Notes under the pieces: model-generated | Told to the model about the DNA's origin: nothing | Databases searched by the model: none | Seen by the model: the letters and a program-made list of their open reading frames with translations, nothing else | Shown: in pieces, positions 30,812 through 53,865 of the stretch | How the letters are laid out: each line of letters begins with the position of its first letter | Position numbering within the stretch: position 1 is the first letter of the stretch | Made by a program: the position numbers and the translations under genes | Assembly: GCF_039535785.1 (NCBI RefSeq) | Contig: NZ_BAAAXV010000009.1 | Span: 1,116,001-1,180,000, forward strand | Direction of reading: 5' to 3' | DNA: 64,000 nt | DNA from: Nonomuraea helvata | GTDB lineage: Bacteria; Actinomycetota; Actinomycetes; Streptosporangiales; Streptosporangiaceae

Positions 30812-30970
30812 TCACGACTCCCCGACGTCAGCCCCACCGGGCAGGCCACGCCGGTGCCGCAGCACCCGTTCGGCACTCTGATGCCGACGGGTCCGCGCCG
30901 CAGTCATTTCTGCCTGTACTCGGCCGACGCACTCACCGTCCCAGTACTGCTGGTGATAGCACTCATCTCC
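30812..30970 (-). pseudogene. Degenerate msrA 3'-end fragment (copy 0, oldest)
   Basis: In minus sense, 30941-30970 reads as the TATCACCAGCAGTAC (YHQQY) part with an upstream GAGATGAGTGC arm. After about 60 unrelated bases, 30812-30877 continues with the GTGCCGAACGGG...CACCGGCGTGGCCTGCCCGG part of the msrA end, now with a short deletion that shifts the frame. It is the most damaged of four copies and the farthest from intact msrA. The rest of the gene-free stretch 30599-31112 shows nothing else recognisable. Confidence 0.7.
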
Positions 30971-31112
30971 AGGCAACAACTTGCCCCCGCAGACAACCAG
31001 GCTTCGAGACGCATGCAGCAAGCGACTCCGTCCGACTGTTCAGGAAATCCCCGCTCTCCGCCTCCAACGGAGTTCGGCTTTTTCCCGAACACCGAGGGAC
31101 TGGGCAGCACCA

Positions 31113-31649
31113 ATGGAGGCCAGGTCACAGCCTCAGAACGAGGCTGAAGTTCTGCGAGCCGGAATGACTGTGCTAGCTGACCGCCTGCCAGCTGGGTGGG
31201 ACATCCAACCGCTGAGCCACAGACTGCTCGATGCTCGCTTCGACGCTCTCTGGAAGGTGACAGCACCGGACGGAACCTCGGTCGTGCTGGTCGTGGAGGC
31301 CAAGCGGGTGGTGGAGAGACGTGACACCGCTACGCTGCTCCATCAGTTGAATGCTGCGGCGGACGAGCATCCAGGCAGCCGCGGGGTTGTCGTCTCTCGC
31401 TATCTGTCGCCACCCGTGCGTAAGCGGCTCTCGGACGCGGGCCTCTCCTACATCGACGCGACAGGGAACATCACCCTGAACGTCTCTCAGCCCGGTCTGT
31501 ACATTGCAGACCGAGGAGCCGACCATGATCCGTGGCGCGGTCCTGGAAGACCGCGCTCGTCCGATCTCGGTCCGCGCTTCTCGATGCCTTGGCCGCAAAC
31601 GATGGCCGGCCGCACCGAGCGCAGGGCAGTGGCCGCGACCACAGCGTAG
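31113..31649 (+). pseudogene. truncated nuclease-like/DNA-binding protein remnant
   Basis: 178 codons from ATG 31113. The fold-like core DARFDALWKVTAPDGTSVVL, VVEAKRVVE resembles a PD-(D/E)xK endonuclease strand pair (D...ExK). It is followed by SRYLSPPVRKRLSDAGLSYI and DATGNITL, RGADHDPWRGPGRPR. Proteins with this run normally continue for well over 100 residues with winged-helix repeats. Here the frame ends after about 30 residues of low-complexity sequence, so the gene is truncated. It lies between msrA fragment 0 and the sugar operon, as expected for a decayed island gene. Original role unknown; an AbiEi-like antitoxin or regulator is possible. Confidence 0.5.
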
Positions 31650-31733
31650 ATCAGTAGACCGTGTGGTCCTCCGCCTTCTCCGTCAAGCTGGCGCACGGGA
31701 TCACATCAACACATAGGGGTCGCGCTGTGGCAG

Positions 31734-32684
31734 TCAGGCGGACGCCGAGAGGCGGATGACCTCCACCTGGCCGTCCAGCAGGACCGGGCCGGCGGCGTAC
31801 GGAACCAGCAGCGTGTCTCCCCGCCGGAGCGACAGGTCGTCCTTGTCGCCGATCAGCCTGCCCTCTCCGGCCACCACGACCAGCACGCTGAAGCCACGTT
31901 CCAGGCGTTCGCCGCCATACAGGCGGCGAACGGCGAAGAACTCGTCCGCGGCCTCGGGCAGCAGTCGCGCCGGAGTACCGCGGAGTTCGTCGAGGCGTGA
32001 TGGCGTCCAGGCGCCGCGGTCGACGCACTGCAGGGCCAGGTCATAGCCGAGGCCGAGGTGGCCGCCGGCGAGGCCGAAGCCTTCGTACTCCAGCAGCACC
32101 GAGAAGTCGGTCGGCTCCTGCACCTCGACCAGCAGGATGCCGTCGCCGATCGCGTGCGGCAGGCCGGCCGGGCAGAGGATCGCGTCGCCGGCCGCAACCG
32201 GGATTTTGTTGGTGGCGGCGAGCATGGCCTCAGTCTTCTGCCCGTCCACCCAGCCGGCCAGCTCGGCGGCCTCCACGTCACGCGCAAAGCCCAGATGGAC
32301 GTACGCGCCGGGCCGCGCGGAGACGATCACCCATGCCTCGGTCTTCCCGTACGGCGAGGCGAGGTGCGCGGTGGCGAAGCGGCGGTCAGGGTGCACATGC
32401 AATGGCAGCCGCTGGCCGGCGTCGAGCAGCTTCACCAGCACGCCGGTGTCGGCGCGTTCCGGGCCGAGCCACCAGCGCGGGTCCGCGGCGATCGCCTCCG
32501 CCAGCACGCGGCCGTCGGCCAGGGTGGACAGTCCGGATGGGGCGAGCCCGAACCTGGAGGTCACCGAGCCCACCCAGTCCTCCGGGCGGTCGGGCAGCCG
32601 CGGCATGTTGCGGAACTCGGCGATCCGGCCGGCGCCGCGATAGAACGTCTCGGGCTGGTTGGCAGGCAGCACCTCGACCGTCAT
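31734..32684 (-). CDS. class I mannose-6-phosphate isomerase-like cupin enzyme
   Basis: 316 residues from ATG 32684, overlapping the kinase stop as ATGA. Cupin metal ligands are visible in LHVHPDRRFATAHLASPYGK, TEAWVIV and AGLPHAIGDGILLVEVQEPT, the usual type I phosphomannose isomerase order. It should interconvert an aldose-6-phosphate and a ketose-6-phosphate. It is last in a transporter-aldolase-kinase operon, so it probably brings the imported sugar (mannose-like or an unusual hexose) to the ketose form used by the kinase and aldolase. Confidence 0.8.
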   Translation of the reverse strand: MTVEVLPANQPETFYRGAGRIAEFRNMPRLPDRPEDWVGSVTSRFGLAPSGLSTLADGRVLAEAIAADPRWWLGPERADTGVLVKLLDAGQRLPLHVHPDRRFATAHLASPYGKTEAWVIVSARPGAYVHLGFARDVEAAELAGWVDGQKTEAMLAATNKIPVAAGDAILCPAGLPHAIGDGILLVEVQEPTDFSVLLEYEGFGLAGGHLGLGYDLALQCVDRGAWTPSRLDELRGTPARLLPEAADEFFAVRRLYGGERLERGFSVLVVVAGEGRLIGDKDDLSLRRGDTLLVPYAAGPVLLDGQVEVIRLSASA

Positions 32685-33877
32685 CGGTGTCCCTTCAGGG
32701 CCAGCTCCGCGAGGAAGCCGCCGACGAACGTGTCGCCGAGCCCGACGGTGGTGGGGTTCTGGACGTCGAGTGCGAAGCCGGGGACACAATCGACAGTCGC
32801 CCCCATGCGCGAGCGCAGCGCCGCCGCGAAGGCGACGGACTCGGGCCGCCGGGCCAGTCGGCGCAGACGCTCGATGTCCTCCTTGCTGAATTCGTCGCCG
32901 TGGCAGTAGCGGGTGGCCGCCATGACCGTGCCGGTGTCGAGGGCGTCGGCGTAACCGCCTGCGCCGAGCGCCACAGCCCAGTACTTCGTGTGCAGCACCA
33001 GCGTCGGCACCGGGATGAGCGCGTGCACCGCCGTGAGCGCCTCTGCGACATCCTCGGCCGAGAGCAGGTCGACCGGGCGCCCGATGTGCGACTGCAGCTC
33101 GTCCTCGTTCAGTCCGTACACGTTGATCTCGTCGAGCAGCGCATCCCGGACCCGGCGGCTGAAGGCGGGCTCGTGGTATGCCGCGTCCTCGAAGTAGGCC
33201 ACCGCCCCGTACGGCAAGTGCCGCATGTGCTCTTTCAGGGAGGCGAGCCTTTCGTCGAGCTCCGCCTTGTCGCGCATGGCGTTGAATCCGGAGATCAGAA
33301 AGATGTCCGCCTTGCCCAACCGGTCGCCGAGATCGTCGGTGAGCAGCAGGGCAGCGTTCGCCGGGTCGTTGACGTAGATCAGGCGGTTCGGGAACGGCGC
33401 GACGATGTCGATGTCGCTCGCCCGGACCCGCAGGCCCTTGTCGTACTGGACGATCAGGTGTGGGTAGAAGGTGTCCTCGACACCGCTGTTGATGTACTCG
33501 CAGTCCGCCGGCAGCAGCCGGCGGAAGGTGTCGTTGACGCTGACCAGGTGCAGCGTGGACGGCACGCCGAGCCGGCTCATCACGATCCCGCCCCGCACCG
33601 AGGTGCCGCCCAGAGTCTCCCGATGCGGGAACCGGTTCGCGAAGGTCGACAGCGCCGGGGCGGAGGCGACGAAGTGTTCGCCGCCTCCGCCCCGGGCAAC
33701 GTACCCGAGGATCGACACCACGAGGTCCCGCTCAGTGGTCACCGTGGCCGGCGACGTCAGTTCCGCGGCCACGATGCCGTACTCGGCGACAAGCTGTTCC
33801 AGGACACTGGTGGTCAGCTTCAACTCGTAGTCGACGCAACCGCCGAGGCCCAGGATTATCCGGGACGCGTCTGCCAT
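32681..33877 (-). CDS. ADP-dependent phosphofructokinase/glucokinase family sugar kinase
   Basis: 398 residues. The ribokinase-like fold with GLGGCVDYELKL at the start, NVYGLNEDELQ carrying the NxxE motif, and TTVGLGDTFVGG carrying the catalytic GxGD point to the ADP-dependent PFK/glucokinase family, first known from archaea and present in some bacteria. It would phosphorylate a hexose or hexose phosphate using ADP, giving AMP; nucleotide preference in bacterial members is uncertain. Placed between an aldolase gene (1-bp gap) and an isomerase gene (4-bp overlap), it most likely makes the aldolase substrate, a ketose-1,6-bisphosphate. Confidence 0.82.
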   Translation of the reverse strand: MADASRIILGLGGCVDYELKLTTSVLEQLVAEYGIVAAELTSPATVTTERDLVVSILGYVARGGGGEHFVASAPALSTFANRFPHRETLGGTSVRGGIVMSRLGVPSTLHLVSVNDTFRRLLPADCEYINSGVEDTFYPHLIVQYDKGLRVRASDIDIVAPFPNRLIYVNDPANAALLLTDDLGDRLGKADIFLISGFNAMRDKAELDERLASLKEHMRHLPYGAVAYFEDAAYHEPAFSRRVRDALLDEINVYGLNEDELQSHIGRPVDLLSAEDVAEALTAVHALIPVPTLVLHTKYWAVALGAGGYADALDTGTVMAATRYCHGDEFSKEDIERLRRLARRPESVAFAAALRSRMGATVDCVPGFALDVQNPTTVGLGDTFVGGFLAELALKGHR

Positions 33878-33878
33878 G

Positions 33879-34742
33879 TCAGTAGAGCGAGCCCTTGCCG
33901 GCGGCGCCGAACAGCTCGATCTTCTGGGCGGCGACCACCTTCATGGCCTCGATGCAGGCGGGCTGGATGGCGTTCGGCTCGCGCACCTTCCGATCGTTGC
34001 CCAGCACCTCGCGCATCTTGTCGTGGTAGGCGACCTTGATATCGGTGGAGATGTTGATCTTGTTGATACCGATTCGCGCCGCCTCGCGAATCTCGTCGTC
34101 CGGGTTGCCTGAGCCGCCGTGCAGCACCAGGGGGATCTGCACCCGGCTCTTGATCTCCTTGAGCAGGTCGAGCTTCAGCTCTGGCTTGAGGTGGGCCGGG
34201 TAGAGGCCGTGGAACGTCCCGATCGCGACGGCGAGGCTGTCCACGCCGGTCTGCTCGACGAACGTGACCGCGTCATCAGGGTCGGTGTAGATGATCTCGG
34301 CGGCGCCCGCCTCGGCGTAGCTGTCGTTCCCGCCGATCGTGCCGAGCTCGCCCTCCACCGACACGCCGAGAACGTGCGCGGAGTCGGTGACCTTCTTGGT
34401 GATCGCGATGTTCTCCTCGAACGGCTTCAGCGACCCGTCGATCATCACGGAGGTGAAGCCGTACTGGATCGCCTGCAGGATCTGCTCATAGGTGGCGCCG
34501 TGGTCCCAGTGGATCGCGATCGGGACGCTCGAGTTGTGCGACCGCTCGACGATGCCGGTGATCATCTCGCGGCCGATGTGCCGAACCTCGTCCGGGTGGA
34601 TCCCGACGATCAGGGGGGCGTTCATCTCCTCGCTGATCTCCACGATCCCCTTGAACATCGCCCAGTCGCTGATGTTGAAGGCGGGCACGGCGAAGCTGTG
34701 TTCGTTGGCGACGTCCAGGATCGCCTTGCCGGTCGTCAGCAT
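33879..34742 (-). CDS. class II ketose-bisphosphate aldolase (GatY/KbaY/FbaA family)
   Basis: 287 residues from ATG 34742 with AAAAGGAGAG upstream. Zinc-aldolase motifs are in order: FAVPAFNISDWAMFKGIVEI, IAIHWDHGATYEQI (catalytic Asp and metal His), GTIGGNDS, GTFHGLYPAHLKPE (metal His) and VLHGGSGNPDDEI (metal His plus phosphate loop), then NKINISTD. It cleaves a ketose-1,6-bisphosphate (tagatose, fructose or a relative) to dihydroxyacetone phosphate and an aldehyde. It links the ABC permeases to the kinase in one operon. Confidence 0.88.
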   Translation of the reverse strand: MLTTGKAILDVANEHSFAVPAFNISDWAMFKGIVEISEEMNAPLIVGIHPDEVRHIGREMITGIVERSHNSSVPIAIHWDHGATYEQILQAIQYGFTSVMIDGSLKPFEENIAITKKVTDSAHVLGVSVEGELGTIGGNDSYAEAGAAEIIYTDPDDAVTFVEQTGVDSLAVAIGTFHGLYPAHLKPELKLDLLKEIKSRVQIPLVLHGGSGNPDDEIREAARIGINKINISTDIKVAYHDKMREVLGNDRKVREPNAIQPACIEAMKVVAAQKIELFGAAGKGSLY

Positions 34743-34776
34743 TTTGTGCGTTCTCTCCTTTTGCGTGCTGGGTGTG

Positions 34777-35622
34777 TCAGGCCTTGACGGCGCCGGCGGT
34801 GAGCCCACCGATGAACCGTCGCTGGAACAGGAGGAAGAGGAGGAGGACCGGAATGGACCCGAGGATGCTCATCGCCATCATCTGGTTCCACTCGTACGAG
34901 TGCTGGCCCATGAGCAGTTGGATGCCGATCGGCACGGTGCGCATGTCGTCGGTACGGGTCAGAGTGAGCGCGAACAGGTACTCGTTCCACGAGATCATGA
35001 ACGTGTACACGCCGACCGCGATCAGACCGGGCACCGAGATCGGCACCAGGATCCGCCACAGCGCGGTCCAGCTGGTGCCGCCGTCGACCTTGACGGACTC
35101 GTCCAGCTCTCGTGGCAGCGTGTTCAGGTACGCGGTGATCATGATGATCGCGTACGGGAGCGTGAACACCATGTGCGTGAGGATCAGGCCGGGATAGGTG
35201 TTGTACAGCCCGAGCCCGACGACGAGCCCGAAGTACGGAATGACCAGCGTGATCGGCGGCACGGCCTGGACACCGACGATCACGGCGTTGATGCTCTTCT
35301 GGAACGGGAACGTGAAGCGGCTGAAGGCGAACCCGGCCAGGACGGCCACCAGCAGCGTCAGGATGGTCACCGCGAAGGCGACGATGTAGCTGTTGAGGAA
35401 GTACCGCAGCTGGGTACCGTTGCCCAGAATCTCCGCGTAGGCGTCGAACGAGAAGCTGTTGGTGACGAGCTTCGGCGGATTCTGGAAGACTTCTCCGTTG
35501 CTCTTGAACGAGGTGGACAGCAGCCACAGGACCGGCAGGCCGGCGAACAGCCCGCCGATGACGAGGCCGGTGATGACGCCGGCCTTGGCGAGGGTGCGAC
35601 GGGTCTTGATGGTGGTGGCCAT
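34777..35622 (-). CDS. carbohydrate ABC transporter permease (MalG type)
   Basis: 281 residues with six transmembrane helices and the cytoplasmic EAA-type loop ELDESVKVDGGTSWTALWRI, VPISVPG, which docks to the ATPase. It ends RRFIGGLTAGAVKA, a very common MalG C-terminus. It forms a heterodimer with the MalF-type permease encoded 7 bp upstream. No ATPase gene is in the operon, so a shared MsiK-like ATPase elsewhere is expected, as in other actinomycete sugar importers. Confidence 0.92.
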   Translation of the reverse strand: MATTIKTRRTLAKAGVITGLVIGGLFAGLPVLWLLSTSFKSNGEVFQNPPKLVTNSFSFDAYAEILGNGTQLRYFLNSYIVAFAVTILTLLVAVLAGFAFSRFTFPFQKSINAVIVGVQAVPPITLVIPYFGLVVGLGLYNTYPGLILTHMVFTLPYAIIMITAYLNTLPRELDESVKVDGGTSWTALWRILVPISVPGLIAVGVYTFMISWNEYLFALTLTRTDDMRTVPIGIQLLMGQHSYEWNQMMAMSILGSIPVLLLFLLFQRRFIGGLTAGAVKA

Positions 35623-35629
35623 GCTTCTC

Positions 35630-36571
35630 TCACCGCTCCCTTTGCTGGCGTACGTAGAAGAAGGCCAGGATCATCGTCAGCAGCAGCACGATCACGGCGG
35701 CGGCGGACGCGGTCGCGAACTCGTACTCGCTGAAGGCTTGCTTGTAGGTGTAGGTGCTGAGCATCTCGGTGGCGTTCAGCGGCCCGCCGCCGGTCGTCAT
35801 CCAGATCAGTGCGAACTGCTGGGACGTCCAGATCAGGTCGAGCACTCCCATGCTGACGATCACCGGTCTTAGTTGGGGCAGCGTCACGTGCATGAACCGC
35901 TGGAACCAGTTCGACCCGTCCATCGCGGCCGCTTCGTACAGGTCGTTGGGGATGCCCTGCAGCCCGGCGAGCAGGCTGATCATGAAGAACGGGTAGCCGG
36001 ACCAGATGTTGACGAACGTGACCGCCCAGAGCGCCTTGCCCGGGTCGCCGAGCCAGTTCACGCCCTCCTGAATGAGACCCAGCGCGTGCAGCACGTAGTT
36101 GACCACACCGGACGGGTCGAGCAGCAGCCGCCAGATGACGGCGATCACCGCGATCGTGAACAGCCAGGGCAGGATGTAGACGATTCGGAAAACGGCCTTG
36201 GCGACCCCGCCCAGCAACTGGGTGTTGAGCATCATCGCGAAGGCCAGGCCGAGGACCAGGTGGGCCACGGTGCTGACCGAGATGAAGATGGCGGTGTTCT
36301 CCAGCGCCGCCAGGAAGTCCGGGTCGGTGAGCACCGTGGTGTAGTTGGCGAACCCGGCGAACACCGGGTTCTCCTGGACGATCACGTTGTCCTGGAACGA
36401 GTAGCTGATCACCATGACGATGGGGACCACCATCAGGACCACGATCAAAAGCACCGTGGGGGACAGATAGCCGTACGGGATCAGGCGCCTGGCCAGGGTG
36501 GAGCGGGTCCGGCCGGGTGTGACCCGTTCCTCGGTGGGCGGCGCCATCTTCGGTGCCGTCATGGATGTCAT
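35630..36571 (-). CDS. carbohydrate ABC transporter permease (MalF type)
   Basis: 313 residues with AAGGAG before ATG 36571. A cytoplasmic N-terminal tail is followed by YLSPTVLLIVVLMVVPIVMV and five more helices. The EAA loop is DLYEAAAMDGSNWFQRFMHV, TLPQLRP. This is the partner of the MalG-type permease. It follows the binding-protein gene by 55 bp, the standard order in sugar importer operons. Confidence 0.92.
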   Translation of the reverse strand: MTSMTAPKMAPPTEERVTPGRTRSTLARRLIPYGYLSPTVLLIVVLMVVPIVMVISYSFQDNVIVQENPVFAGFANYTTVLTDPDFLAALENTAIFISVSTVAHLVLGLAFAMMLNTQLLGGVAKAVFRIVYILPWLFTIAVIAVIWRLLLDPSGVVNYVLHALGLIQEGVNWLGDPGKALWAVTFVNIWSGYPFFMISLLAGLQGIPNDLYEAAAMDGSNWFQRFMHVTLPQLRPVIVSMGVLDLIWTSQQFALIWMTTGGGPLNATEMLSTYTYKQAFSEYEFATASAAAVIVLLLTMILAFFYVRQQRER

Positions 36572-36626
36572 CGCTTTCTCCTTGATCGCGCGCCGCGCCG
36601 GGGGACCGGCACGGCGCCCGGGCGGG

Positions 36627-37916
36627 CTACCCGATCACCGAGGACCAGGACTCCTGCGACTTGGCGAGGGCGGCGTCGACACTGGTCTTGCCGGTCAGCA
36701 CGAGCTGGAGCTGCTCGTCGAAGCTGCGCATCAGGTCCTCGGACTTGGGCAGGCCGACGAACTCGTTGGCGGGGTAGCCCTGCTGGTAGATGTCGAAAGC
36801 GGTCTTGAACAGCGGGTCACTGTTGCTGAAGTCCGGCTTGGCGTTCTTGTTACCCGGGAAGCCGTTCGCGATCGTGCTCAGCTTCGCGTTGGTCTCCTGG
36901 CTGAGCAGGTAGGACACGAACTTGAACGCCTCGGCCTTGTGCTCGGTGGAGTTGGAGATGCCGATACCCCACGACGCGTACGGGATGCCGCGCTTGCCGG
37001 TGTAGCCGTCCTCAGCCGGAAGGGCCGCCACCTCGAACTTCAGATCCGGCTTGTTCTTCTTGATCAGGTTGATGTGCGCGAGCGAGTCGATCATCATGCC
37101 GACCTGGCCGTTGGTGAACTTCTCGACCTTGTCCTGCTCTTTCATGGTGAGCGAGCCGGGGGCGATGACGCCCGCGTCGTTCAGGCTCTTCACGTACTCG
37201 ACCACGCTCTTGACCGGCGCGCCGGTCAGGTTTGGCTTGCCGTCGGTCAGCATGCTGCCACCGGACGCCCAGAGCCAGGACATGACGTCGTTCTGGATGC
37301 CGTTGGGGACGGCGCTGTCGAGCGGGAGCGCCCAGCCCTTCACGTCACCGCCGGTTGCGCTGATCTTCTTGGCCGCGTCGAGGAACTGGGTGCGCGTGGT
37401 GGGCACCTCGGCGACGCCGGCCTTGGTGAGCAGGTCCTTGTTGACGAAGAGCGGGTAGACGAAGTTGACCACCGGGATCATGTAGGTCTTGCCCTTGACC
37501 TGCACCTGACTGGCGAGCTCGCCGGCGTCGTACTTCGCGTCGGCCATCAGCTTGGACAGATCGGTGATCGCGCCCTGCTTGGCGAAGTCGTTGACCCAGG
37601 CGCCGTCGAGACCCACCACGTCGGGCAGGGTCTTCGACGCGGCGCCGGTGATCAGCTGCTGCTTCGTCGACGCGTACGGCGCGCTCAGCAGCTTGATCTT
37701 GATCTTCGGGTTCTGAGCGGTGAAATCGTTAACGATCTTGTCGAACTCCCCGGCAGGGAGCTCGGACCCCCACCACTGGGCGAACTCCAGCGTCACACTG
37801 CCGTCCGCGGCGGTGTCGCCCGAGGCACCCGAGCCGCACGCCGCCACGAACGCGACCGTCGCAGCCGCTGTCGCCGCCCCTATCACTCGCTTCACCCGGG
37901 TTGCACCAACCGCCAT
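36627..37916 (-). CDS. extracellular sugar-binding lipoprotein of an ABC importer
   Basis: 429 residues with GAAGGAG before ATG 37916. The signal peptide AATAAATVAFVAAC gives a lipobox with Cys27. The mature protein has family 1 solute-binding features: SVTLEFAQWWGSEL, DVVGLDGAWVNDFAKQGAI, NKDLLTKAGVAEVP and GIGISNSTEHKAEAFKFVSY. It captures a sugar or oligosaccharide outside the cell and hands it to the two permeases. It is the first gene of the operon and diverges from the DeoR gene, which probably represses it. Confidence 0.92.
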   Translation of the reverse strand: MAVGATRVKRVIGAATAAATVAFVAACGSGASGDTAADGSVTLEFAQWWGSELPAGEFDKIVNDFTAQNPKIKIKLLSAPYASTKQQLITGAASKTLPDVVGLDGAWVNDFAKQGAITDLSKLMADAKYDAGELASQVQVKGKTYMIPVVNFVYPLFVNKDLLTKAGVAEVPTTRTQFLDAAKKISATGGDVKGWALPLDSAVPNGIQNDVMSWLWASGGSMLTDGKPNLTGAPVKSVVEYVKSLNDAGVIAPGSLTMKEQDKVEKFTNGQVGMMIDSLAHINLIKKNKPDLKFEVAALPAEDGYTGKRGIPYASWGIGISNSTEHKAEAFKFVSYLLSQETNAKLSTIANGFPGNKNAKPDFSNSDPLFKTAFDIYQQGYPANEFVGLPKSEDLMRSFDEQLQLVLTGKTSVDAALAKSQESWSSVIG

Positions 37917-38150
37917 GACGGGCTCCTTCTATAACGAGATCTTTCCGTCCTCTGCCGAGTTGGCCGTCACGTTAGCAGCGTGTTACGAACACCTACAAGA
38001 GAAGAACCGCAAAAAACTGCGAACTACGGCATAATGTGGTGCCATGAAGCAGGATCCGGCACGCTATTGTCACCCTCTGATCTGTAAAGATCTCCGCCCC
38101 TACCGGCCTTCGGTCGACCCTGCCCACGCTTGCAGCTCTCAGCAGATCTA

Positions 38151-38196
38151 TGCGGCAATATGCTCAGTAGGCGCTGACTTGTGGCATACTGCCGCA
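38151..38196. promoter_or_regulatory. Inverted repeat before the DeoR gene (candidate operator)
   Basis: TGCGGCAATATGC (38151-38163) and GCATACTGCCGCA (38184-38196) are complementary at 12 of 13 positions, 20 bp apart, just upstream of the DeoR start at 38214. A CATACT box inside the second arm could be a -10. A DeoR-type tetramer could bind both arms to control its own gene and, across 240 bp, the divergent sugar operon. Confidence 0.55.
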
Positions 38197-38213
38197 CTGA
38201 CAAGGGGGAATCA

Positions 38214-39032: not shown

Positions 39033-39048
39033 TGCCCAGAAGAGCTTG

Positions 39049-39160
39049 TCAGGCCTCACCAGACGTCAACCCGACCGGACAGGCCACCCCGGTGCCGCCG
39101 ATTCCGCAGTACCCGTTCGGCACTTTAAAAAGGTATTGCTGGTGGTAGCAGTTCACCTCG
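39049..39160 (-). pseudogene. Displaced msrA 3'-end fragment (copy 1, candidate att site)
   Basis: In minus sense this encodes [32 protein letters not shown] and a TGA stop, i.e. the C-terminus of MsrA without the rest of the gene. The upstream arm GAGGTGAACTGC is not msrA but recurs in similar form at copies 0 and 2. Within the 19-codon core it differs from copies 2 and 3 only at synonymous third positions. Confidence 0.85.
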
Positions 39161-39270
39161 CGCACCAATAGGCAAGACGTGACATGAGTGGCTATGGCAC
39201 AACTTGGCGACAGCCTTAGGTAAAGAAGTCGCACTCAAGGTGTGTGCCAGTGGCCACCTCGCCGACGAGT

Positions 39271-39285
39271 GTGCGATTATCGCAC
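39271..39285. promoter_or_regulatory. Palindrome over the XRE-ImmA start region (candidate operator)
   Basis: GTGCGATTATCGCAC is a perfect inverted repeat (6-bp arms, TTA centre) ending one base before ATG 39287. The GATTAT within it is a plausible -10 of a leaderless promoter. The XRE protein encoded next probably binds here to repress its own operon. Confidence 0.65.
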
Positions 39286-39286
39286 C

Positions 39287-41073: not shown

Positions 41074-41093
41074 GGCAATAGATGGGCAGCAAC

Positions 41094-44874: not shown

Positions 44875-44898
44875 GCACAGGACGCCCAGGACGTCCCC

Positions 44899-45379: not shown

Positions 45380-45587
45380 CTGAACCAACCGAACGAGCTG
45401 TCTGCCCAGGAGTGGGGCAAGCAGCAAGCCGCACGATCCCCTCGCTGGTCAGAAGAGAAGTGGCAGCGCATCGCCACCGTGCTCGGCGTATGCGTCGCCC
45501 GCCAAACCCCGCCCTGTCGACGACGCGTGAATACTGACCCCCAGGCGACGGCCGAAATCTGACCCCCCTTGCAGTTCACTCTGGAGG

Positions 45588-46811: not shown

Positions 46812-47635
46812 TGGCCGCACGAACCAGCGCCGCCACCGCGTCAACGGCGGCAGCCAGCGGCCGCAACATCGGCGCCGAGCTGGCCTACCTGACCCGCGTG
46901 CTGAAGGCACCTTCACTGGCAGCGGCCATCGAGCGGCTAGCCGAACGGGCCCGCGCCGAGTCCTGGAGTCATGAGGAGTTCCTGGCCGCCTGCCTGCAAC
47001 GTGAAGTGGCCGCCCGCGACTCCCACGGCGGCGAGGCCCGCATCCGCGCCGCGCGCTTCCCGGCCCGCAAGGCCCTGGAGGATTTCGACTACGACCACCA
47101 GCGCTCTCTCAAACGCGAGGCCATCGCGCATCTGAGCACGCTGGACTTCGTCACCGCCAAAGACAACGTAGTCTTCCTCGGCCCGCCCGGCACCGGCAAA
47201 ACGCACCTGTCGATCGGCCTGGGCATCCGCGCCTGCCAAGCCGGCCATCGGGTCGCTTTCGCCACCGCTGCAGAGTGGGTGGCCCGTCTGGCAGACGCGC
47301 ACGCCGCCGGCCGCTTGCAGGACGAGTTGATCAAGCTGGCCCGCATCCCGGTCCTGATCGTCGACGAGGTGGGCTACATCCCGTTCGAGTCCGAGGCTGC
47401 CAACTTGTTCTTCCAGCTGGTCTCCAGCCGCTACGAACGCGCCTCGCTGATCGTCACGTCCAACAAGCCCTTCGGCCGCTGGGGCGAGGTGTTCGGCGAC
47501 GACGTGGTCGCCGCCGCCATGATCGACCGTCTCGTCCACCACGCCGAAGTCATCTCACTGAAGGGAGACAGCTACCGGCTGAAGAACCGCGACCTGGGCC
47601 GGGTCCCACCGGTCCGCTCTGAGCACGAGCAGTAA
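46811..47635 (+). CDS. istB: IS21-family helper ATPase IstB
   Basis: 274 residues from ATG 46811, which overlaps the istA stop (TGATG). AAA+ features are complete: Walker A GPPGTGKTHL, Walker B IPVLIVDEVGYIPF, sensor region SLIVTSNKPFGRWGEVFGDD and the C-terminal AMIDRLVHHAEVISLKGDSY. It loads on DNA and selects the target site for IstA. The reading frame is undamaged. Confidence 0.93.
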   Translation: MAARTSAATASTAAASGRNIGAELAYLTRVLKAPSLAAAIERLAERARAESWSHEEFLAACLQREVAARDSHGGEARIRAARFPARKALEDFDYDHQRSLKREAIAHLSTLDFVTAKDNVVFLGPPGTGKTHLSIGLGIRACQAGHRVAFATAAEWVARLADAHAAGRLQDELIKLARIPVLIVDEVGYIPFESEAANLFFQLVSSRYERASLIVTSNKPFGRWGEVFGDDVVAAAMIDRLVHHAEVISLKGDSYRLKNRDLGRVPPVRSEHEQ

Positions 47636-47735
47636 CCAACGACAAGACCAGGGGGTCAAGATTCAACCGTCGTCAGGGGGTCAGAATTCGGCCGTCGTTG
47701 ACACCGCCCGACGGCTCCTCCGGGAAGGACGCCGC

Positions 47736-49073
47736 ATGAGCGAGGTTCCTCACCTGTCACCCGAGATGCTGGCCGTGATGCAGCGAGCGGCCATGCCCGA
47801 CTTCGCCCGCTGGCAACAGATGGTCCACGCCACGGGCGGCTGCGCCCAACCGGTCCGGCTGCACGGCGAGAGGTACACGCTGGACAGCCGGACGGGCGAA
47901 GTCCTCGACATGTACCGGACCGCCGACGAGCCAACCGGCTTCCTACTCACAGCATGCGGCAACCGGCGCGCGTCCAGATGCCCGGCCTGCTCGGCGGTCT
48001 ACAAGGACGACACGTACCACCTGATCATCACTGGCCTACGCGGCGGCAAGGGCGTTCCGGAGGAGGTCAGCCAGCATCCCCGGGCGTTCGTCACCTTCAC
48101 CGCCCCCTCCTTCGGAGTCGTCCACGCCCACCGCGAGCAGTCCGGCCGGACACTCCCATGTCGTCCGCGCCCGAACCGTCCCGTCTGCGAGCATGGCCGG
48201 TCGAAGGGTTGCGGTTTGCGTCATGAGCGCGATGACGTCCAGGTCGGACAGCCCCTGTGCGTGGACTGCTACGACTACATCGGAGCCGTCCTGTGGAACG
48301 CTCACGCGGGCGTCCTCTGGCGGGAGTTCGCCAAGACGATGCCGAGCGTCCTGGCCCGCCTGCTCGGCATCACCCGAATGAAGCTACGCCGGACGGTCCG
48401 CCTCTCGTACGCCAAGGTCGCCGAGCACCAAGCGCGCGGCATGGTCCACTTCCATGCCGTCGTCAGACTCGACGGACCGGACGGACCCGCCGACCACCCT
48501 CCGGACCACATCACTATCGACCTGCTCGACCGGGCCATACGCCGGACCGCCGATCAGGTCGCGGTCCGAATAGAGGACGGACCGCCCTCGCCCGTCCGGT
48601 GGGGCGATCAGCTCGACATACGGCCGGTCTACGTCTCGGCCGAGCTGGGCGGGTTGAGCGATCAGCGAGTCGCCGCGTACGTGGCCAAGTACGCCACCAA
48701 GGGAGCCGAGTCTGCAGGCACCGTTGACCGTCCGATTCGACATGCCGGGGAGATCGCCAGGTTGGAGGTCACCGAGCACGCCCGCCGCATGATCTACACC
48801 TGTTTCAGTCTCGCCGAGCTCCAGCCCTACCGAACCCTGCTCCTGCGGCGGTGGGCGCACATGCTCGGCTACCGGGGACACTTCTCCACCAAGTCCCGCC
48901 ACTACTCGATCAGACTCGGGGACATTCGACAGGCCCGCGCCGGCTTCCGTGCCGAGCAAGCCCGGCTGATCATGGGCACTGCGCCTCCCGATCCGGAGAA
49001 GACCGTGACGGTAGGCGAATGGCGCTATGCCGGAAGCGGCCACCGCCACGGAGAGGCTTTTGGGCTGAGGTAG
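47736..49073 (+). CDS. repSA: RepSA-type rolling-circle replication initiator, apparently frameshifted near its end
   Basis: 445 residues as read. Cysteine-rich regions (CGNRRASRCPAC; CEHGRSKGCG, CVDCYDY) flank the HUH endonuclease motif HFH at 238-240 (RGMVHFHAVVRLDG). A downstream KYATKGAESAG and RRWAHMLGYRGHFSTKSRHY are typical of RepSA initiators of pSAM2-like elements. The frame stops at 49073 after GEAFGLR. Moving back one base in the TTTT at 49058-49061 gives FWAEVARQRIATARKI and ends at 49135, the kind of tail such proteins have. The element keeps replication and integration genes but no visible TraB/FtsK-type transfer gene. Now uncoupled from its upstream ORF by IS21. Confidence 0.85.
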   Translation: MSEVPHLSPEMLAVMQRAAMPDFARWQQMVHATGGCAQPVRLHGERYTLDSRTGEVLDMYRTADEPTGFLLTACGNRRASRCPACSAVYKDDTYHLIITGLRGGKGVPEEVSQHPRAFVTFTAPSFGVVHAHREQSGRTLPCRPRPNRPVCEHGRSKGCGLRHERDDVQVGQPLCVDCYDYIGAVLWNAHAGVLWREFAKTMPSVLARLLGITRMKLRRTVRLSYAKVAEHQARGMVHFHAVVRLDGPDGPADHPPDHITIDLLDRAIRRTADQVAVRIEDGPPSPVRWGDQLDIRPVYVSAELGGLSDQRVAAYVAKYATKGAESAGTVDRPIRHAGEIARLEVTEHARRMIYTCFSLAELQPYRTLLLRRWAHMLGYRGHFSTKSRHYSIRLGDIRQARAGFRAEQARLIMGTAPPDPEKTVTVGEWRYAGSGHRHGEAFGLR

Positions 49074-49142
49074 CACGCCAACGGATCGCCACCGCTCGCA
49101 AGATCGCACGACAGCAAGCAGACGAGGACCGGTAGGGCCCGC

Positions 49143-49181
49143 GCCTCTAGACCTAGAGAGATCACCTCTAGGTCTAGAGGC
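49143..49181. terminator. Perfect 16-bp hairpin between convergent genes
   Basis: GCCTCTAGACCTAGAG (49143-49158) pairs fully with CTCTAGGTCTAGAGGC (49166-49181) around a 7-base loop. Each arm is itself nearly palindromic (CTCTAG/CTAGAG). It lies between the end of repSA and the end of the SLOG gene and would terminate both, or act as a cruciform site for the Rep protein. Confidence 0.75.
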
Positions 49182-49183
49182 TC

Positions 49184-49660
49184 CTAATCTCGCCGGGCCC
49201 CATCAGGCCAGATCACCCGCACGGGCACCTCCAGCCGCTGCGCCTCGGCCACCACGTCAGCAGTCCCGCCATAACCTCGGGCCGGCTGCCCGTCCCAGAC
49301 GGCGAACAACACCTCGACGTCGTCCAGCATCCGCGCACTGGCCGCCATGTGCGACTCCGCGGTGGACTCCACAAAGTCCAGCCTGTGAGTCCGGACCGCC
49401 CGGCCCAGCAACTCGTCGTACGCAGCCTGGCACTCGCCCGGCAACCCATCCCGATACTCCTTGGCAGGGATCACGGCTTCCAGCACGCCGCCGAGGTCGA
49501 GTACCGCGCGAGCGAAGATCTGATCAGCCCCGTCCGCCAGGCAGGACAACCCGGCGACTTCAGGACCGTACTCCGCGAGCGCCTGGCGTACCGCCCCGTC
49601 GATCAGTACGGCGGTCTCCTCCGGCAAGCCCCGGTGGCCGGACACAGCGATGCGAACCAT
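49184..49660 (-). CDS. SLOG/LOG-like nucleotide-binding protein
   Basis: 158 residues with a Rossmann-like SLOG layout: MVRIAVSGHRGLPEETAVLI, GLSCLADGADQIFARAVLDL, VEVLFAVWDGQPARGYGGTA, DVVAEAQRLEVPVRVIWPDG. The GHRGL and GYGGTADVV loops are where SLOG proteins hold nucleotide ligands. SLOG proteins are proposed sensors of nucleotide signals in stress or defence systems. It lies 7 bp after the TPR-XRE gene, so the two form an operon. The specific role is unknown. Confidence 0.75.
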   Translation of the reverse strand: MVRIAVSGHRGLPEETAVLIDGAVRQALAEYGPEVAGLSCLADGADQIFARAVLDLGGVLEAVIPAKEYRDGLPGECQAAYDELLGRAVRTHRLDFVESTAESHMAASARMLDDVEVLFAVWDGQPARGYGGTADVVAEAQRLEVPVRVIWPDGARRD

Positions 49661-49667
49661 GATTCCC

Positions 49668-50909
49668 CTAGATCAGAGTGGCGTGAAGACGCTCGTCGAA
49701 CGAGCGCAAAGCGCCGGACGACGGCCCGGCATACGATCGTCGGAAGTTCTTGACCCGGTGCAGGACACGCTCGGAGCCATACGTCGTCGCCACCGTAAGC
49801 GCGTTGGAAGCCAGATACAGCGCCTCGTCATAGCGCCCCGACATGGCCTCAGCCGTCGCCACCTCCGTCATGAGCACACCCCGCTGCTTCGCGCCGGGCT
49901 GGGCCGACGAAAGCGACTCATTGAACGCGGCAACGGCTTCAACCGGCCGCTTGAGCCGTACCATCACCAGAGCCCGATACCCCGCCAGCTTGGCGTGATC
50001 GAACGGGAACACCCATGGCCAAGGCGGCGCGGCGGCCCGTTCACCAGCCCGTACCGCCTCCTCAGCCGCGCCCAACGCCTGAAGCGCTGCCGCCTCGTCT
50101 CGCGCGGTCGCATGGCCGAGCGCTTCGAGACTCGACAGCCACGCACGAGCGATGGCCGGTGGCCGCTCACCGATCTCCCACCGCGCCCGCACCAGGAGAT
50201 TCAGTCCAATCAGCGGATCGTCGGCGTCGATCTCGAACGCGGCCAGACTACCGATCATGTACGCCGCCAGCAGCGCATGGTTGGCCCGTCGCGCGCTGTC
50301 GATGGCGCGCCGGTAGTAGAAACGCGCCGAACCGGTGTCCTGCATGTCGGCATGCACCCAGGCCGCGAAGCCCGCCGCCTCGCTCAGACCGGCCCGGATC
50401 TCGTCAGCATGCGGAGACCGCGACGCGCGGCCGAGAACGCGGCTCGCAAGATCGACCTGCGCCACAGCCGGCCTGGCGAGTTCGCGCGCAGGCGTGACCG
50501 CCTCCAACCGACGCTGGGCGCCCGTGATGCTGGTCAGCGTGGCGGCCGTCGTCTCGTCCACATCGGGCCGCTTGGGCAGGGCCACCCCCGCCAGCGCGGT
50601 CAACGCCAGCGCCTTGCCGAAATCTCTGCGCTTCGTCGGATCGTCATCCCCTCGGGTTCCGAATCGGAGCAAATGAAGCGGCACCCCGATCTGGATGGAT
50701 ATCTCCCGGACCTGGTCCACAGTGAGCGGCTGACGACCACGCAACACCTTGGACACCCAACTCTGGGAGTAGCCGACCGCCTCAGCGAGCTGGCCCTGCG
50801 TCCAACCGTGCGCCCGCCGCACCTCTTCGAGGATGGTTGGTAGATCGCACTCGGCGAGAGCGGCGGCCACGACTGGCCCGGACCAGAACTGCGGCGGTAT
50901 CTGGGTCAC
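49668..50909 (-). CDS. XRE-family regulator with TPR-like C-terminal domain
   Basis: 413 residues from GTG 50909, with TAACCT 9 bp upstream, so probably leaderless. The HTH is RRAHGWTQGQLAEAVGYSQS, WVSKVLRGRQPL. After KRRDFGKALALTALAG comes an array of helical pairs with TPR character (GSARFYYRRAIDSARRANHA, WLSSLEALGHATARDEAAAL, RYDEALYLASNALTVATTYG). Such proteins are abundant in streptomycete-type genomes and mobile elements. It is probably the element's regulator and is coupled to the SLOG gene. Confidence 0.85.
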   Translation of the reverse strand: MTQIPPQFWSGPVVAAALAECDLPTILEEVRRAHGWTQGQLAEAVGYSQSWVSKVLRGRQPLTVDQVREISIQIGVPLHLLRFGTRGDDDPTKRRDFGKALALTALAGVALPKRPDVDETTAATLTSITGAQRRLEAVTPARELARPAVAQVDLASRVLGRASRSPHADEIRAGLSEAAGFAAWVHADMQDTGSARFYYRRAIDSARRANHALLAAYMIGSLAAFEIDADDPLIGLNLLVRARWEIGERPPAIARAWLSSLEALGHATARDEAAALQALGAAEEAVRAGERAAAPPWPWVFPFDHAKLAGYRALVMVRLKRPVEAVAAFNESLSSAQPGAKQRGVLMTEVATAEAMSGRYDEALYLASNALTVATTYGSERVLHRVKNFRRSYAGPSSGALRSFDERLHATLI

Positions 50910-51023
50910 AACGCTAGGTTAAGCCGCTGACCTCGGCCGAACCGATATTCGTGACGGGAATACCCGTACCACCAGCAGCACTAGGCCGTTCACCTGCGGT
51001 TTCATGACGGCAACGCTCAGTAC

Positions 51024-51344
51024 ATGAACGAACTACCGCCTCACCCTTTGGCCGCCGCACAACAACTGGCCGCCGCCCTTGCGGACGAGGGAATCACTGC
51101 CGACGTCCATCACGACTACGGCACGCCCATGGTGTCGGTCTGGGTCGGGCTGATCGTTTGGTGTGCGGACGGCACGTACTGGTGGCGCACCGGCTGGAAC
51201 CCACGCAGACACCGACCGATCTACGCAGGCCACCCCTTCACTCAGCCGGCCCGCGCCGCCCACCGCGTCGCCCTTCGCTACACGCAACTGCGCATGTCGC
51301 ATCCGCTCTCGTCACTGATCGCCGGAGCACAGCCGTGCCCCTGA
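51024..51344 (+). CDS. small hypothetical protein of the integrative element
   Basis: 106 residues starting MNELPPHPLAAAQQLAAALA. It has an amphipathic N-terminal helix, then a beta region (VSVWVGLIVWCADGTYWWRT) and PARAAHRVALRYTQLRMSHP. No catalytic motif or signal peptide. Small proteins of this style accompany XRE-TPR regulators in Streptomyces elements; role unknown. Divergent from the XRE gene and overlapping the next small gene by 10 bp. Confidence 0.65.
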   Translation: MNELPPHPLAAAQQLAAALADEGITADVHHDYGTPMVSVWVGLIVWCADGTYWWRTGWNPRRHRPIYAGHPFTQPARAAHRVALRYTQLRMSHPLSSLIAGAQPCP

Positions 51345-51559
51345 CCGTGCAGCAAGTGCTCAACAGATTCCCCGGCTGGCAGATCACCGACATGTCCGGA
51401 GGCTGGGTCGCCATGCGAATCAACTTCATGCCCAAGAACAGCGGTCTCTCCAACGTGCGTTGCGGAGAGACATTGGAGGAACTGGCCGGGAATCTACACG
51501 CTGAGATCAGGCAGCAGAAGTCACGGGCATCGGTAGCAGGTAACTCGATGGCAAGCTAA
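51335..51559 (+). CDS. small hypothetical protein
   Basis: 74 residues from GTG 51335, inside the end of the previous gene, which suggests coupling. It reads VPLTVQQVLNRFPGWQITDM, SGGWVAMRINFMPKNSGLSN and ends in a helical, polar tail (LEELAGNLHAEIRQQKSRAS). I do not recognise the family. The two-gene unit probably belongs to the integrative element. Confidence 0.55.
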   Translation: MPLTVQQVLNRFPGWQITDMSGGWVAMRINFMPKNSGLSNVRCGETLEELAGNLHAEIRQQKSRASVAGNSMAS

Positions 51560-51995
51560 CCAGGGGCGAGGCTCTCTATCCCCGGCGACGGATGCGTTGC
51601 GGCAATCCGAACTTCCGCTTTTCAGGCGAACCGATCGCCATGCTCGGCTGATCGCAACCCCGGTCAGACGCGTGTGGAAGGTCGCTTGGATGCGTCGATG
51701 TGTGGGGACGTTGCTGGCAGCCCTGCTGTCACCTCGACCAGAGAAACCCGGTGGCAAGGCCCGACGAAGGAGGGCCGCGGCAGTTCCCTGAGCCGATCGC
51801 CCTGGCCCGTATGGCGCGTGCCGAAGTCAGCGATCGTCATGGCCTCAGCCGAACACCTCATTGCGAGTGAGAACAAAATCACTCATGCCGTTCAGGTGAG
51901 GCGGGTAAGCCTGCTCAAGGTGACCTCGCTGTTCGGCGTCATCCGCCAACGTCCGTGATCGTCCAGAACCATTGCCAGTATGTGCAGTGATGCGA
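51560..51995. other. Gene-free stretch
   Basis: No supported coding sequence, RNA gene or clear repeat. Codon bias is poor in every frame and base composition is less GC-rich than around it, as expected of decayed element DNA. Confidence 0.4.
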
Positions 51996-52481
51996 CTAGG
52001 GTTGCTTCTCACCCTGATCGAGACCGAGGTCTACGCGCATGCAATTTCGTAGCGCAGCAAATCGAGCAGCCCACTGCTGTTGCGCTTCACGAAAGGCAGG
52101 GTCGCTGTTTGCCCCTCCCCCGCCTTCTATAAGGTCGCGCAGGCTTCGTAGAGCATTGAATGCGGCTGTAGAGGCATCGGTGACATGGCCTGGAGCAACA
52201 AGTGCCACTTGATACCGTGCCTGGTATGCTCCTCCCGCCTCAAAGGCTTCGAGAGCTAGACGGGCCTTGTCTTCGATGGGCGAGCCAGCATTCCGGGCTG
52301 CAACCCTAAGATGGTGGCGCGTTAGTGAAAGTGCGGCAAGGTAGTCGCCATATAGCTGTCGCCTGACAGTTCGGCTTTCCTCCCGCTGGTTGCGATTCGC
52401 TCGAGTCCAGTCGGCGAGCAGCGTCGCAGCAATGCCAATCACGGCACCGAGTGCAGTGCTAAATAAGGGTATCCAGCTCAT
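51996..52481 (-). CDS. hypothetical membrane-anchored protein
   Basis: 161 residues starting MSWIPLFSTALGAVIGIAAT. One N-terminal transmembrane helix is followed by a charged helical domain (DWTRANRNQREESRTVRRQL, YGDYLAALSLTRHHLRVAAR, QQQWAARFAALRNCMRVDLG), so the bulk is probably cytoplasmic and coiled. Codon usage is less GC-biased than in the flanking chromosome, a sign of acquired DNA. A standalone gene near the msrA end of the element. Function unknown. Confidence 0.65.
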   Translation of the reverse strand: MSWIPLFSTALGAVIGIAATLLADWTRANRNQREESRTVRRQLYGDYLAALSLTRHHLRVAARNAGSPIEDKARLALEAFEAGGAYQARYQVALVAPGHVTDASTAAFNALRSLRDLIEGGGGANSDPAFREAQQQWAARFAALRNCMRVDLGLDQGEKQP

Positions 52482-53208
52482 ATCAGTGATTGTAAGCGCA
52501 TTGAAGTGGCACTTACCTCGGGGACTTGCTGAATACGGCGATGATTACAGCAAGGACCCTTTGAGGATACGCTACATAATGAGTTTTATGCTCATCCCAA
52601 ATTATTTGATATCAGTGGGCTGGGTATCGCCACTCCAGCGGTAACCTGATCTGATCACCTCGTACGCCGTCGACCAACCGCGGAGCGGCAGCGGGCCGGC
52701 TCCGGAGTGTCAAGCCCGGCTTCGTGTGCACCTCCACCGTCACCGTTCCTCGGTCATGTGTTGGCCTGCGGTCACAGCCGGGCTTGATGCGGAGGAACTG
52801 GTCTGCTGGGCTCGCCTGGGTCGACGGTGTGCAAGGTAATCAGGTTCCATCTCAACAACCCCACGAGCTGGACCCCATCGAGATGATCAGCTCGGGGCCA
52901 GAGATTCCCTGCCAGAGGCATGATCTGACGATCGGAGGCTGCGGACTGTACGTCGGTCTCTGAGCTGTACTCCGTGATGAGCGCGCCGATTCAGGCTGTC
53001 TATTGCGGTGGTTGGGCGCGTGGGCGTGCTGGCCGCGACCGGCCGAAGAGCTGCAGCGCGGCCAGCTGGCGCCCGGACGCGCCGTCGACCGCCGCAGGCG
53101 GGCGGCTTGAACCTGTAAGGAAGGTTGTCGCCGAAGACGGCTCTGGCCCATGATCGACGCCGGACGGACCGGGCGACCATAGGCCAGGAACTAGCTATCT
53201 CCGCAGGT
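52482..53208. other. Gene-free stretch with an AT-richer patch and a 12-bp inverted repeat
   Basis: No supported gene. Bases about 52490-52620 are clearly AT-richer than the rest. TCAAGCCCGGCT (52710-52721) and AGCCGGGCTTGA (52776-52787) are perfect inverted repeats 54 bp apart, perhaps the relic of an insertion end or a foldback. An 80-codon open frame at 52724-52963 has no coding features I trust. Confidence 0.4.
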
Positions 53209-53865
53209 CTACGCCTCGCCGGAGGTCAGGCCCACCGGACAGACGACGCCCGTCCCGCCGATTCCGCAGTAGCCGTTTTTGTTGCGGTGGAGGTACTGCT
53301 GGTGATAGTCCTCGGCATAGTAGAACGGGCCCGCCGCGGCGACCTCCGTGGTGATCTCACCGTAGCCGGCCGCCTTCAGCACCCCCTGGTACGCGTCCCG
53401 AGACGCCTCCGCCGCCTTCTGCTGCTCCGGCGAGTGGTAATAGATGGCCGAACGGTACTGCGTCCCCACGTCGTTGCCCTGGCGCATGCCCTGCGTCGGG
53501 TCGTGGGCCTCCCAGAAGACCCTCAGGAGCTCCTCGTACGACACCTGAGCCGGGTCGAACGCCACCCGGACGACCTCAGCATGGCCCGTGAGGCCGCTGC
53601 AGACCTCCTCGTACGTCGGGTTGGGCGTGTAGCCGCCCTGGTAGCCCACCGCCGTCGTGACGACCCCGGGCGTCTGCCAGAACTTGCGCTCGGCGCCCCA
53701 GAAGCAGCCGAGGCCGAAGTCGGCGACCTCCCGGCCCGGGGGCGGGGTGAGCGGGGCGTCGAGGACCGCGTGGCGGGAGGGGATCGGCATCGGGTCCTGG
53801 CGGCCCGGGAGGGCGTCCTCGGGTCGGACCATCGATGTCTTGTTGCCGCCGAAAAGCCAGCCCAT
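53209..53865 (-). CDS. msrA: peptide-methionine (S)-S-oxide reductase
   Basis: 218 residues from ATG 53865 with GGAGG upstream. It repairs oxidised methionine (S epimer). The catalytic Cys is in [50 protein letters not shown] and [12 protein letters not shown] follow. The C-terminus [32 protein letters not shown] holds a likely resolving Cys. The same C-terminal coding end, without the rest of the gene, recurs at 43.2, 41.0, 39.1 and 30.8 kb in the same orientation. This makes msrA the probable integration target. The present tail (LHRNKNG) differs from the fragments (LFKVPNG) and may have been supplied by the last element. Confidence 0.93.

Follow-up and report, generated by a model that had tools for sequence, protein, structure and literature searches.

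Displaced msrA 3′ ends in the window

The DNA analysed here, referred to as the window, is a stretch of 64,000 nucleotides from Nonomuraea helvata (assembly GCF_039535785.1, contig NZ_BAAAXV010000009.1, positions 1,116,001 to 1,180,000) that carries one intact msrA gene and four displaced msrA 3′ ends, numbered 0 to 3 toward the gene (Table 1). Each displaced end contains the core TACCACCAGCA, preceded by a related arm of non-msrA sequence. In displaced end 0, the arm and the core are intact (TTGTTGCCTGGAGATGAGTGC followed by TACCACCAGCA, 30979-30948), and the tail behind them is interrupted, with 71 base pairs (bp) between the core and the VPNG codons versus 13 in the other ends. Displaced ends 1 to 3 encode 19 identical residues; over these 19 codons they differ at five (1/2), four (1/3), and five (2/3) bases, every one of them a synonymous third-position change. 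The intact msrA differs from the same three ends at 18 to 21 bases in 10 to 13 codons, four of these codons being non-synonymous, which reflects a different type of tail (LHRNKNG). The whole genome (11.26 Mb) yielded a single PF01625 msrA gene, and a query with a 33-amino-acid (aa) tail matched only the five 3′ ends. No tRNA gene, as an integration target, was found in the window.

The original prediction, which was made from the window itself, described four C-terminal msrA fragments oriented like the intact gene, a related non-msrA arm in copies 0 to 2, and the strongest decay in the copy farthest from msrA. All three claims were borne out: the minus strand carries all five 3′ ends, arm and core occur at all four displaced ends, and copy 0 is the most decayed of the four. 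The prediction also gave four synonymous third-position changes for each of the pairs 1/2 and 1/3; the synonymy and the count for 1/3 stood, whereas pair 1/2 differs at five bases. The large serine recombinase gene, which the prediction placed 35 bp from the nearest fragment, starts 40 bp from the Tyr codon of the nearest displaced end.

That the displaced ends share orientation and sequence with the msrA end would also fit relics of tandem msrA duplications. However, the genome holds only the one msrA, a non-msrA arm stands directly before the core at those displaced sites that match a strict arm-plus-core pattern, and the uninterrupted and filled sites described below show insertion, so that we give this explanation next to no credence.

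Insertion at the msrA core in genus g33

The genus designated g33, which also belongs to the Streptosporangiaceae, contains msrA genes both with and without an insert. Two loci (L158 and L159) have an msrA that is uninterrupted at the core, with the end type GVNAGDPSNWCPTGLTS, and two others (L160 and L161) have the same flanks and are split at the core by units of 9,184 and 8,885 bp, respectively (core to core). Positions 74-1828 of L158 correspond to 1-1755 of L160 (92%) and positions 1761-2728 to 10872-11834 (94%); the 68 bp by which the two alignments overlap are the tail. The four uninterrupted/filled pairings all agree. Compared with the uninterrupted gene, the filled msrA is identical at 20 of the 22 bp before the core and at only 15 to 19 of 65 positions in tail bases 60-125, and the displaced end at 7 of 22 and 57 to 60 of 65, respectively. 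The filled loci thus have an msrA with a new in-frame tail, which reads RNVNG where other element tails have [RH]N[KI]NG, and the resident tail at the far end of the unit. The g33 insert encodes a recombinase that is 81% identical to the one in the window and whose start adjoins arm and core. As read from these alignments, the comparison shows insertion at the core, replacement of the tail, and displacement of the old one.

The units might instead integrate by homologous recombination between the approximately 95-bp msrA tails, and the tail of L159, with an element-like proximal and a resident-type distal part, does look chimeric. Nevertheless, the common 21-bp arm that precedes the core before unrelated contents and across genera plays no part in homologous recombination, the match with the uninterrupted gene switches at the core, and the recombinase adjoins the site in all nine genomes that have the window recombinase or its close relatives; we consider this route highly improbable. 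The L159 tail itself (G159:C2, near locus 1793) reads LHRNVNG proximally and GVNAGAPSNW distally, and is perhaps the scar of an element lost by homologous recombination between tails.

We propose, with a probability of about 0.8, that a family of integrative units found in the Streptosporangiaceae uses the msrA 3′ end as its attachment site in the chromosome and that these units stack by recombination at the core. A circular unit would carry an arm (P), the core (TACCACCAGCARTA), and an msrA-coding tail (P′). A recombination event at the core, in all likelihood catalysed by the large serine recombinase of a 6- to 10-kb element, would join the msrA body to the tail of the incoming unit, so that the gene stays whole, and would leave the previous tail beside P at the far end. 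Repeated insertion at msrA would stack the units in a single orientation. As cassettes keep an ordinary tail, the site after insertion would resemble the original one, and their tails would regenerate a usable site; the RNKNG tail of the element would presumably be a poor target while the element is resident. The recombinase probably catalyses integration and, as an integron integrase does, may also move recombinase-less cassettes in trans, and we infer both the reversibility of integration and the closing of the site. The last approximately 30 codons of the intact msrA in the window would then have been supplied by the resident element.

The recombinase and its element

The recombinase of the window has a serine at position 13 in the motif YARIS, which we take to be the catalytic serine and which is invariant across eight recombinase sequences. 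Its match to the PF13408 zinc ribbon stays below the cut-off (E 0.0012; 19.6 bits against 25.3), and the one sequence match in the PDB is an integrase (E 3.1e-5). Recombinases that are 82 to 91% identical to it occur in eight other Nonomuraea genomes (only 120 aa in G035, and split in G024), and in all nine of these genomes, the window's included, the gene adjoins an msrA tail. Relatives in other genera, at 83, 73, and 63% identity, also lie at msrA or adjoin an msrA tail. A phage collection returned 246 records, all below 60% identity, with ten among the matches listed at 27.7 to 29.5%, and a plasmid collection returned 26, the best at 64.7% (a chromosome-sized N. gerenzanensis record) and nine others among the matches listed at 25.7 to 29.5%.

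The msrA-side and arm-side sites have a short core in common, differ in one arm pair, and have the recombinase gene beside them. The other arm, the tail, is alike in the attP-like and attB-like sites, which is unusual; such half-identical sites, with core and tail alike and the other arm different, would allow a direct test of what determines the direction of serine integrases.

The tail type follows the element. Ten of ten msrA genes beside a recombinase element (one truncated to 119 aa) end in [RH]N[KI]NG, versus 2 of 45 others, and one of these two loci, L065, contains a RepSA remnant. The same type accounts for 12 of 55 msrA genes but for only 1 of 87 displaced ends, which suggests either little use of the msrA site during residence of the element or a recent arrival of the element.

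The more distant recombinases (59 to 65%) of G018 and G037, the closest ones located away from msrA, had no msrA tail within 260 bp before their start. By eye, those of L080, L081, and L083 in these two genomes adjoin aldo/keto reductase-like and methyltransferase-like genes, and the recombinase family seems to have targets besides msrA. Locus L103 has two recombinases (63 and 61% identical to that of the window) in opposite orientations, with two RepSA genes, behind one RNKNG-tailed msrA.

Recurrent small units

A strict site pattern located 86 P sites (87 after one B-called site was recounted as P). It forces the core and misses decayed sites such as displaced end 0, and it thereby shapes the cassette, tail, and arm statistics given below. 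Slices of units for class and tail comparisons begin one base early, and one stretch without msrA (L046) was left out of the oriented set.

The 82 units between consecutive strict sites have a median length of 2.1 kb; 39 are shorter than 2 kb, and 71 have no recombinase match. Among the units below 2 kb, 36 of 39 have a match to at least one partner from seven toxin-antitoxin types (YefM/ParE, two VapBC-like PIN types, Gp49/XRE, a Phd-like pair, HTH_17/PIN_3, and IrrE/PIN-like). Length-matched stretches drawn at random from the sequence distal to the last strict site gave a mean of 3.2 and a maximum of 11 of 39 in 500 draws, although this control requires 60% of a match to lie inside the interval where the cassette count accepts any match, so that the two are not quite alike, and its stretches also contain decayed cassettes. 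These matches show pairs predicted to be toxin-antitoxin systems as recurrent content of the small units, while larger units hold other cargo, such as the sugar operon of the window. The YefM/ParE unit measures 1014 to 1018 bp in eight Nonomuraea species, at differing positions in the arrays, and the VapBC-like unit 928 to 938 bp in six loci. Units of one class are alike in content and arm up to the core, and the sequence after the next tail is unrelated.

Ordinary tandem accretion could also produce such arrays, if complete elements had been inserted and most had decayed in the manner of cis-mobilizable elements (CIME), leaving the addictive toxin-antitoxin pairs in small units that are immobile alone. 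This route is described for other elements (PMC5704250), and buried remnants do exist, namely, recombinase and RepSA pieces in L041 and HTH-TPR and 158-aa genes in L032 and L033. Independent decay, however, would not be expected to yield equal ends, and the two compact units recur across species with equal ends in differing places and beside differing neighbours (eight loci for YefM/ParE and six for VapBC-like). We therefore regard decay of complete elements as unlikely to explain the small units.

Arms and tails

Inside one genus, arm similarity was 0.845 within a class versus 0.505 between classes. An arm profile built from 28 Nonomuraea classes scored the 29 classes of other genera at a mean of 13.1, compared with −27.1 (standard deviation [sd] 1.8) for shuffled arms, and 23 of these 29 lie above the 99.9th percentile of random 21-mers. 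Profile scores of this kind show that one arm motif precedes unrelated contents in several genera. The tails are also tied to the class: the own tails of class mates had a similarity of 57.9 versus 45.1 (sd 3.0; p 0.0005) when the classes were permuted inside each genus, and a test without genus matching gave median ranks of 0.007 (p 0.001) for the own tail and 0.13 (p 0.004) for the next tail. The interior distance of the YefM/ParE units does not track the msrA-body distance (r −0.27).

Of the 87 displaced tails, 68 are in frame, where an in-frame tail had to keep four of six motif residues, and third positions account for 64.5% of the differences among these in-frame tails versus 69.5% in intact genes. 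The in-frame share falls along the array, from 32 of 35 at the first place to 19 of 23 at the second and 6 of 12 beyond. These counts show an ordered arrangement of the arrays, with a loss of frame with distance from msrA, and, given the third-position bias, the displaced tails probably served as msrA ends before displacement, the older ones decaying. The original prediction had said that the tails were under protein selection before they were displaced, and the predominance of third-position differences supports it. Its central claim, that elements insert into msrA, supply an in-frame tail, and push the old tail off, likewise holds up against the g33 sites, the tail types that follow the element type, and the bias and frame loss just described.

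A second MsrA end type (GDPS...CPTGLTSS and variants) occurs in L106, L108, and L116 and in the intact msrA of L158 and L162-L167. Several genomes have an intact msrA frame that closes with the GDPS-type tail, whereas in L160 and L161 the displaced end is of this type. Most loci with such an end also have other tails: pieces lie downstream in L158, L162, L164, L165, and L166, and none were reported for L159 and L167. The notion that this type is always the oldest, farthest, and native tail was rejected, as L041 has another tail beyond it and several displaced tails of L163 are of the GDPS type. In L106, L108, and L116, the GDPS-type end is followed by a hairpin and a T-rich stretch that look terminator-like by eye.

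Several points weigh against units that stack by recombination at the msrA core. All of the evidence is comparative sequence, drawn from one genome per species and from many drafts with contig breaks. In g33, L158 is not pristine, as it has decayed pieces of tail 0.9 and 1.9 kb downstream, the common right flank extends over 0.97 kb only (0.64 to 0.66 kb more with L161), and a third filled locus, L169, has the left flank in common but not the right one. PF00239 (resolvase) was not reported for the window recombinase at E≤0.1. Six of the 29 other-genus arms fall under the 99.9th percentile of random 21-mers, the next tail is also tied to the class (48.5 versus 40.6, sd 3.6, p 0.012), and within the YefM/ParE class a Mantel comparison of interior with own tail was not significant (r 0.21, p 0.17). 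The GDPSEW-like tail of L041 is not the most distal one. The toxin-antitoxin query proteins came from these same cassettes, so that the 36 of 39 measures the recurrence of those families; some cassette proteins are below the Pfam cut-off, and partners of 103 and 117 aa have no Pfam match. Finally, the tails offer approximately 95 bp of homology, and some shuffling of units may therefore be due to homologous recombination between them.

Distribution

The msrA 3′ arrays appear to be a system that spans the bacterial family Streptosporangiaceae. This reach, the small size of most units and their lack of a recombinase, and the many toxin-antitoxin pairs formed no part of the original prediction. 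The 33-aa tail query (E≤0.01) matched 48 of 54 genomes of the genus, with at least two matches in 37 of 54 and up to nine, although some of the second matches behind the figure of 37 are weak and a few are located far from msrA (e.g., in G020 and G029). A survey of the family (200 genomes from 68 genera, 11 of the genomes from the window's genus) found multi-tail genomes in other genera as well, with up to nine tails in G117. Across 84,980 species, in a scan that may omit records close to the window's own, the exact arm-plus-core pattern TNGCNNRRRRYNRRSYNCTACCACCAGCARTA occurred in 23 stretches, all of them from Streptosporangiaceae (Nonomuraea, including [Actinomadura] parvosata, Microbispora, Microtetraspora, Planobispora, and Planotetraspora) and every one followed by an msrA-like tail. 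In the 54 Nonomuraea genomes, the arm-plus-core pattern matched 26 times, in 19 genomes and always where the tail query also matched, two of the four displaced sites of the window being among these matches; the reversed control gave none. An msrA tail was also seen inside a 320-aa open frame in a contig stretch without an msrA body (G006:C574:46545-46637), where a displaced tail may have become fused to a different reading frame.

Relation to known systems

Integrons hold short one- or two-gene cassettes, many of them toxin-antitoxin pairs, stacked in one orientation by a tyrosine recombinase. The msrA arrays are similar in that short cassettes lie in one orientation at one insertion point. 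They differ in that a housekeeping gene provides the recombination site with its coding end and in that the associated recombinase is of the serine class and sits inside an inserted mobile element, 71 of the 82 units having no match to it. The recombinase beside the sites is a PF07508 protein and not an IntI tyrosine recombinase, for which no dedicated search was made; lacking the defining recombinase of integrons, the msrA system is not filed among them. It may still be a serine-recombinase counterpart of integrons, a reading that we hold at somewhat less than even odds. The end of a housekeeping gene would be the platform, regenerated by the in-frame end of each cassette, and toxin-antitoxin cassettes of approximately 1 kb would be captured and exchanged in trans by the recombinase of a separately travelling element, the platform being closed while that element is resident. 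If this is true, integron-type cassette arrays arose a second time, with unrelated recombinase chemistry and the end of a protein-coding gene as the capture site. It would also account for the accumulation of toxin-antitoxin pairs at a single place in these actinomycetes, leave each genome with an ordered record of its gene captures, and provide an integrase that preserves its target gene for use in the engineering of Streptosporangiaceae.

Composite staphylococcal cassette chromosome (SCC) islands occur in staphylococci. The SCC and enterococcal cassette chromosome (ECC) elements, the latter of 21 to 78 kb, are inserted by serine recombinases at the 3′ region of rlmH, with att sites at both ends (PMC6222049). 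The msrA system resembles these CcrAB systems in its serine recombinase and in insertion near the 3′ end of a conserved gene. It differs from them in having msrA and not rlmH as the target, a single recombinase, approximately 30 replaced codons, and arrays of approximately 1-kb cassettes; the only NCBIfam match of the recombinase was to XisF, below the cut-off. In actinomycete integrative and conjugative elements (AICEs), RepSA is combined with an integrase, and 19 of 144 AICEs have a serine recombinase, according to the survey by Ghinet et al. (PMC3218068). The msrA element likewise has a RepSA-type initiator and an integrase. No FtsK/SpoIIIE-like transfer protein was found among the element proteins scanned, which represent part of the open reading frames of the elements, and the string "methionine sulf" is absent from the main text of the same survey. 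Tandem accretion at a target gene is also described for CIME and integrative and mobilizable elements of the ICESt1 type, some of which are without recombination genes (PMC5704250), whereas in the msrA arrays minimal cassettes with equal ends recur, several of them in each array. Among the matches listed from the openly available literature, judged on titles and the openings of abstracts, none gave an account of an msrA integration system.

Units and flanks of the window

The features of the window are listed in Table 1. The resident element has an IS21-type insertion between its recombinase and RepSA genes.

Table 1. Positions of msrA, its displaced 3′ ends, and the units and flank in the window
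Feature	Position	Strand	Remarks
Intact msrA	53209..53865	-	218 aa from chosen start; stop ends at 53209
msrA-side half site (B arm) and core TATCACCAGCA	53297..53328	-	core at 53307-53297
Displaced msrA 3′ end no. 3, arm TTGTTGCGGAGAGTTAAGTTC and core	43227..43346	-	core start 43325
Displaced msrA 3′ end no. 2, arm CTATTGCCCGAGGCGAAGTGC and core	40926..41081	-	core start 41060
Displaced msrA 3′ end no. 1, arm TTGGTGCGCGAGGTGAACTGC and core	39049..39168	-	core start 39147
Displaced msrA 3′ end no. 0, arm TTGTTGCCTGGAGATGAGTGC and core intact, tail interrupted/decayed	30802..30979	-	core start 30958
Resident unit: recombinase, IS21 insertion, RepSA, 158-aa protein, NsdA-family HTH-TPR regulator	43326..53296		9,982 bp core to core, msrA tail included
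Large serine recombinase, 502 aa	43366..44874	+	PF07508 E 3.8e-16, over cut-off
IS21-type istA/istB	45588..47635	+	PF01695 E 2.9e-82, Mu-transpos_C_2 E 4.1e-29
RepSA replication initiator (pSAM2 type)	47736..49073	+	PF20199 E 3.2e-153; NF041486 below its cut-off
158-aa protein, no assigned function, in several of the elements	49184..49660	-	
HTH-TPR regulator, NsdA family, in several of the elements	49668..50909	-	NF053720 above cut-off
Cassette: DUF6891 protein and YefM/ParE-type toxin-antitoxin pair	41082..43226		
DUF6891 protein	42078-43085	+	
YefM/ParE-type pair	41616-41939, 41094-41612	-, -	ParE_toxin, phd_fam over cut-off
Cassette: HTH-IrrE protein and 183-aa protein	39169..40925		
HTH-IrrE protein	39242-40381	+	
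183-aa protein, resembles PIN-like partner in L047	40378-40929	+	
8.2-kb unit: sugar operon (31.7-39.0 kb)	30980..39048		arm and core at both ends
Chromosomal far flank: glyoxalase, TetR, YjbR, common to relatives	6945..9769		

The distance between msrA and the far flank is 43 kb in the window and 12.5 to 16.9 kb in 11 relatives, so that the variable region of the window exceeds 22 kb. The accretion island of about 22 kb in the original prediction is thus supported as a stacked island but not in its size. Inside the variable region, at 25133-30661, lies an 1842-aa fusion of biotin carboxylase, biotinyl, and carboxyltransferase domains. The prediction had proposed a look in relatives for empty sites at which msrA is followed directly by this carboxylase gene. 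Uninterrupted msrA genes were found in g33, as described above, but the carboxylase neighbour was not: the gene occurs in 0 of 59 other loci (stretches of up to 20 kb) and is not a general old neighbour of msrA, and this form of the empty site was rejected.

The 8.2-kb unit holds genes for a DeoR regulator, a sugar-binding protein, two ABC permeases, an aldolase, a sugar kinase, and a phosphomannose-isomerase-like protein. The YefM/ParE pair of the window is mostly 83 to 98% identical to the full-length pairs at other Nonomuraea loci, and the HTH-IrrE and 183-aa proteins have a 93 to 94% identical pair in N. terrae (L044).

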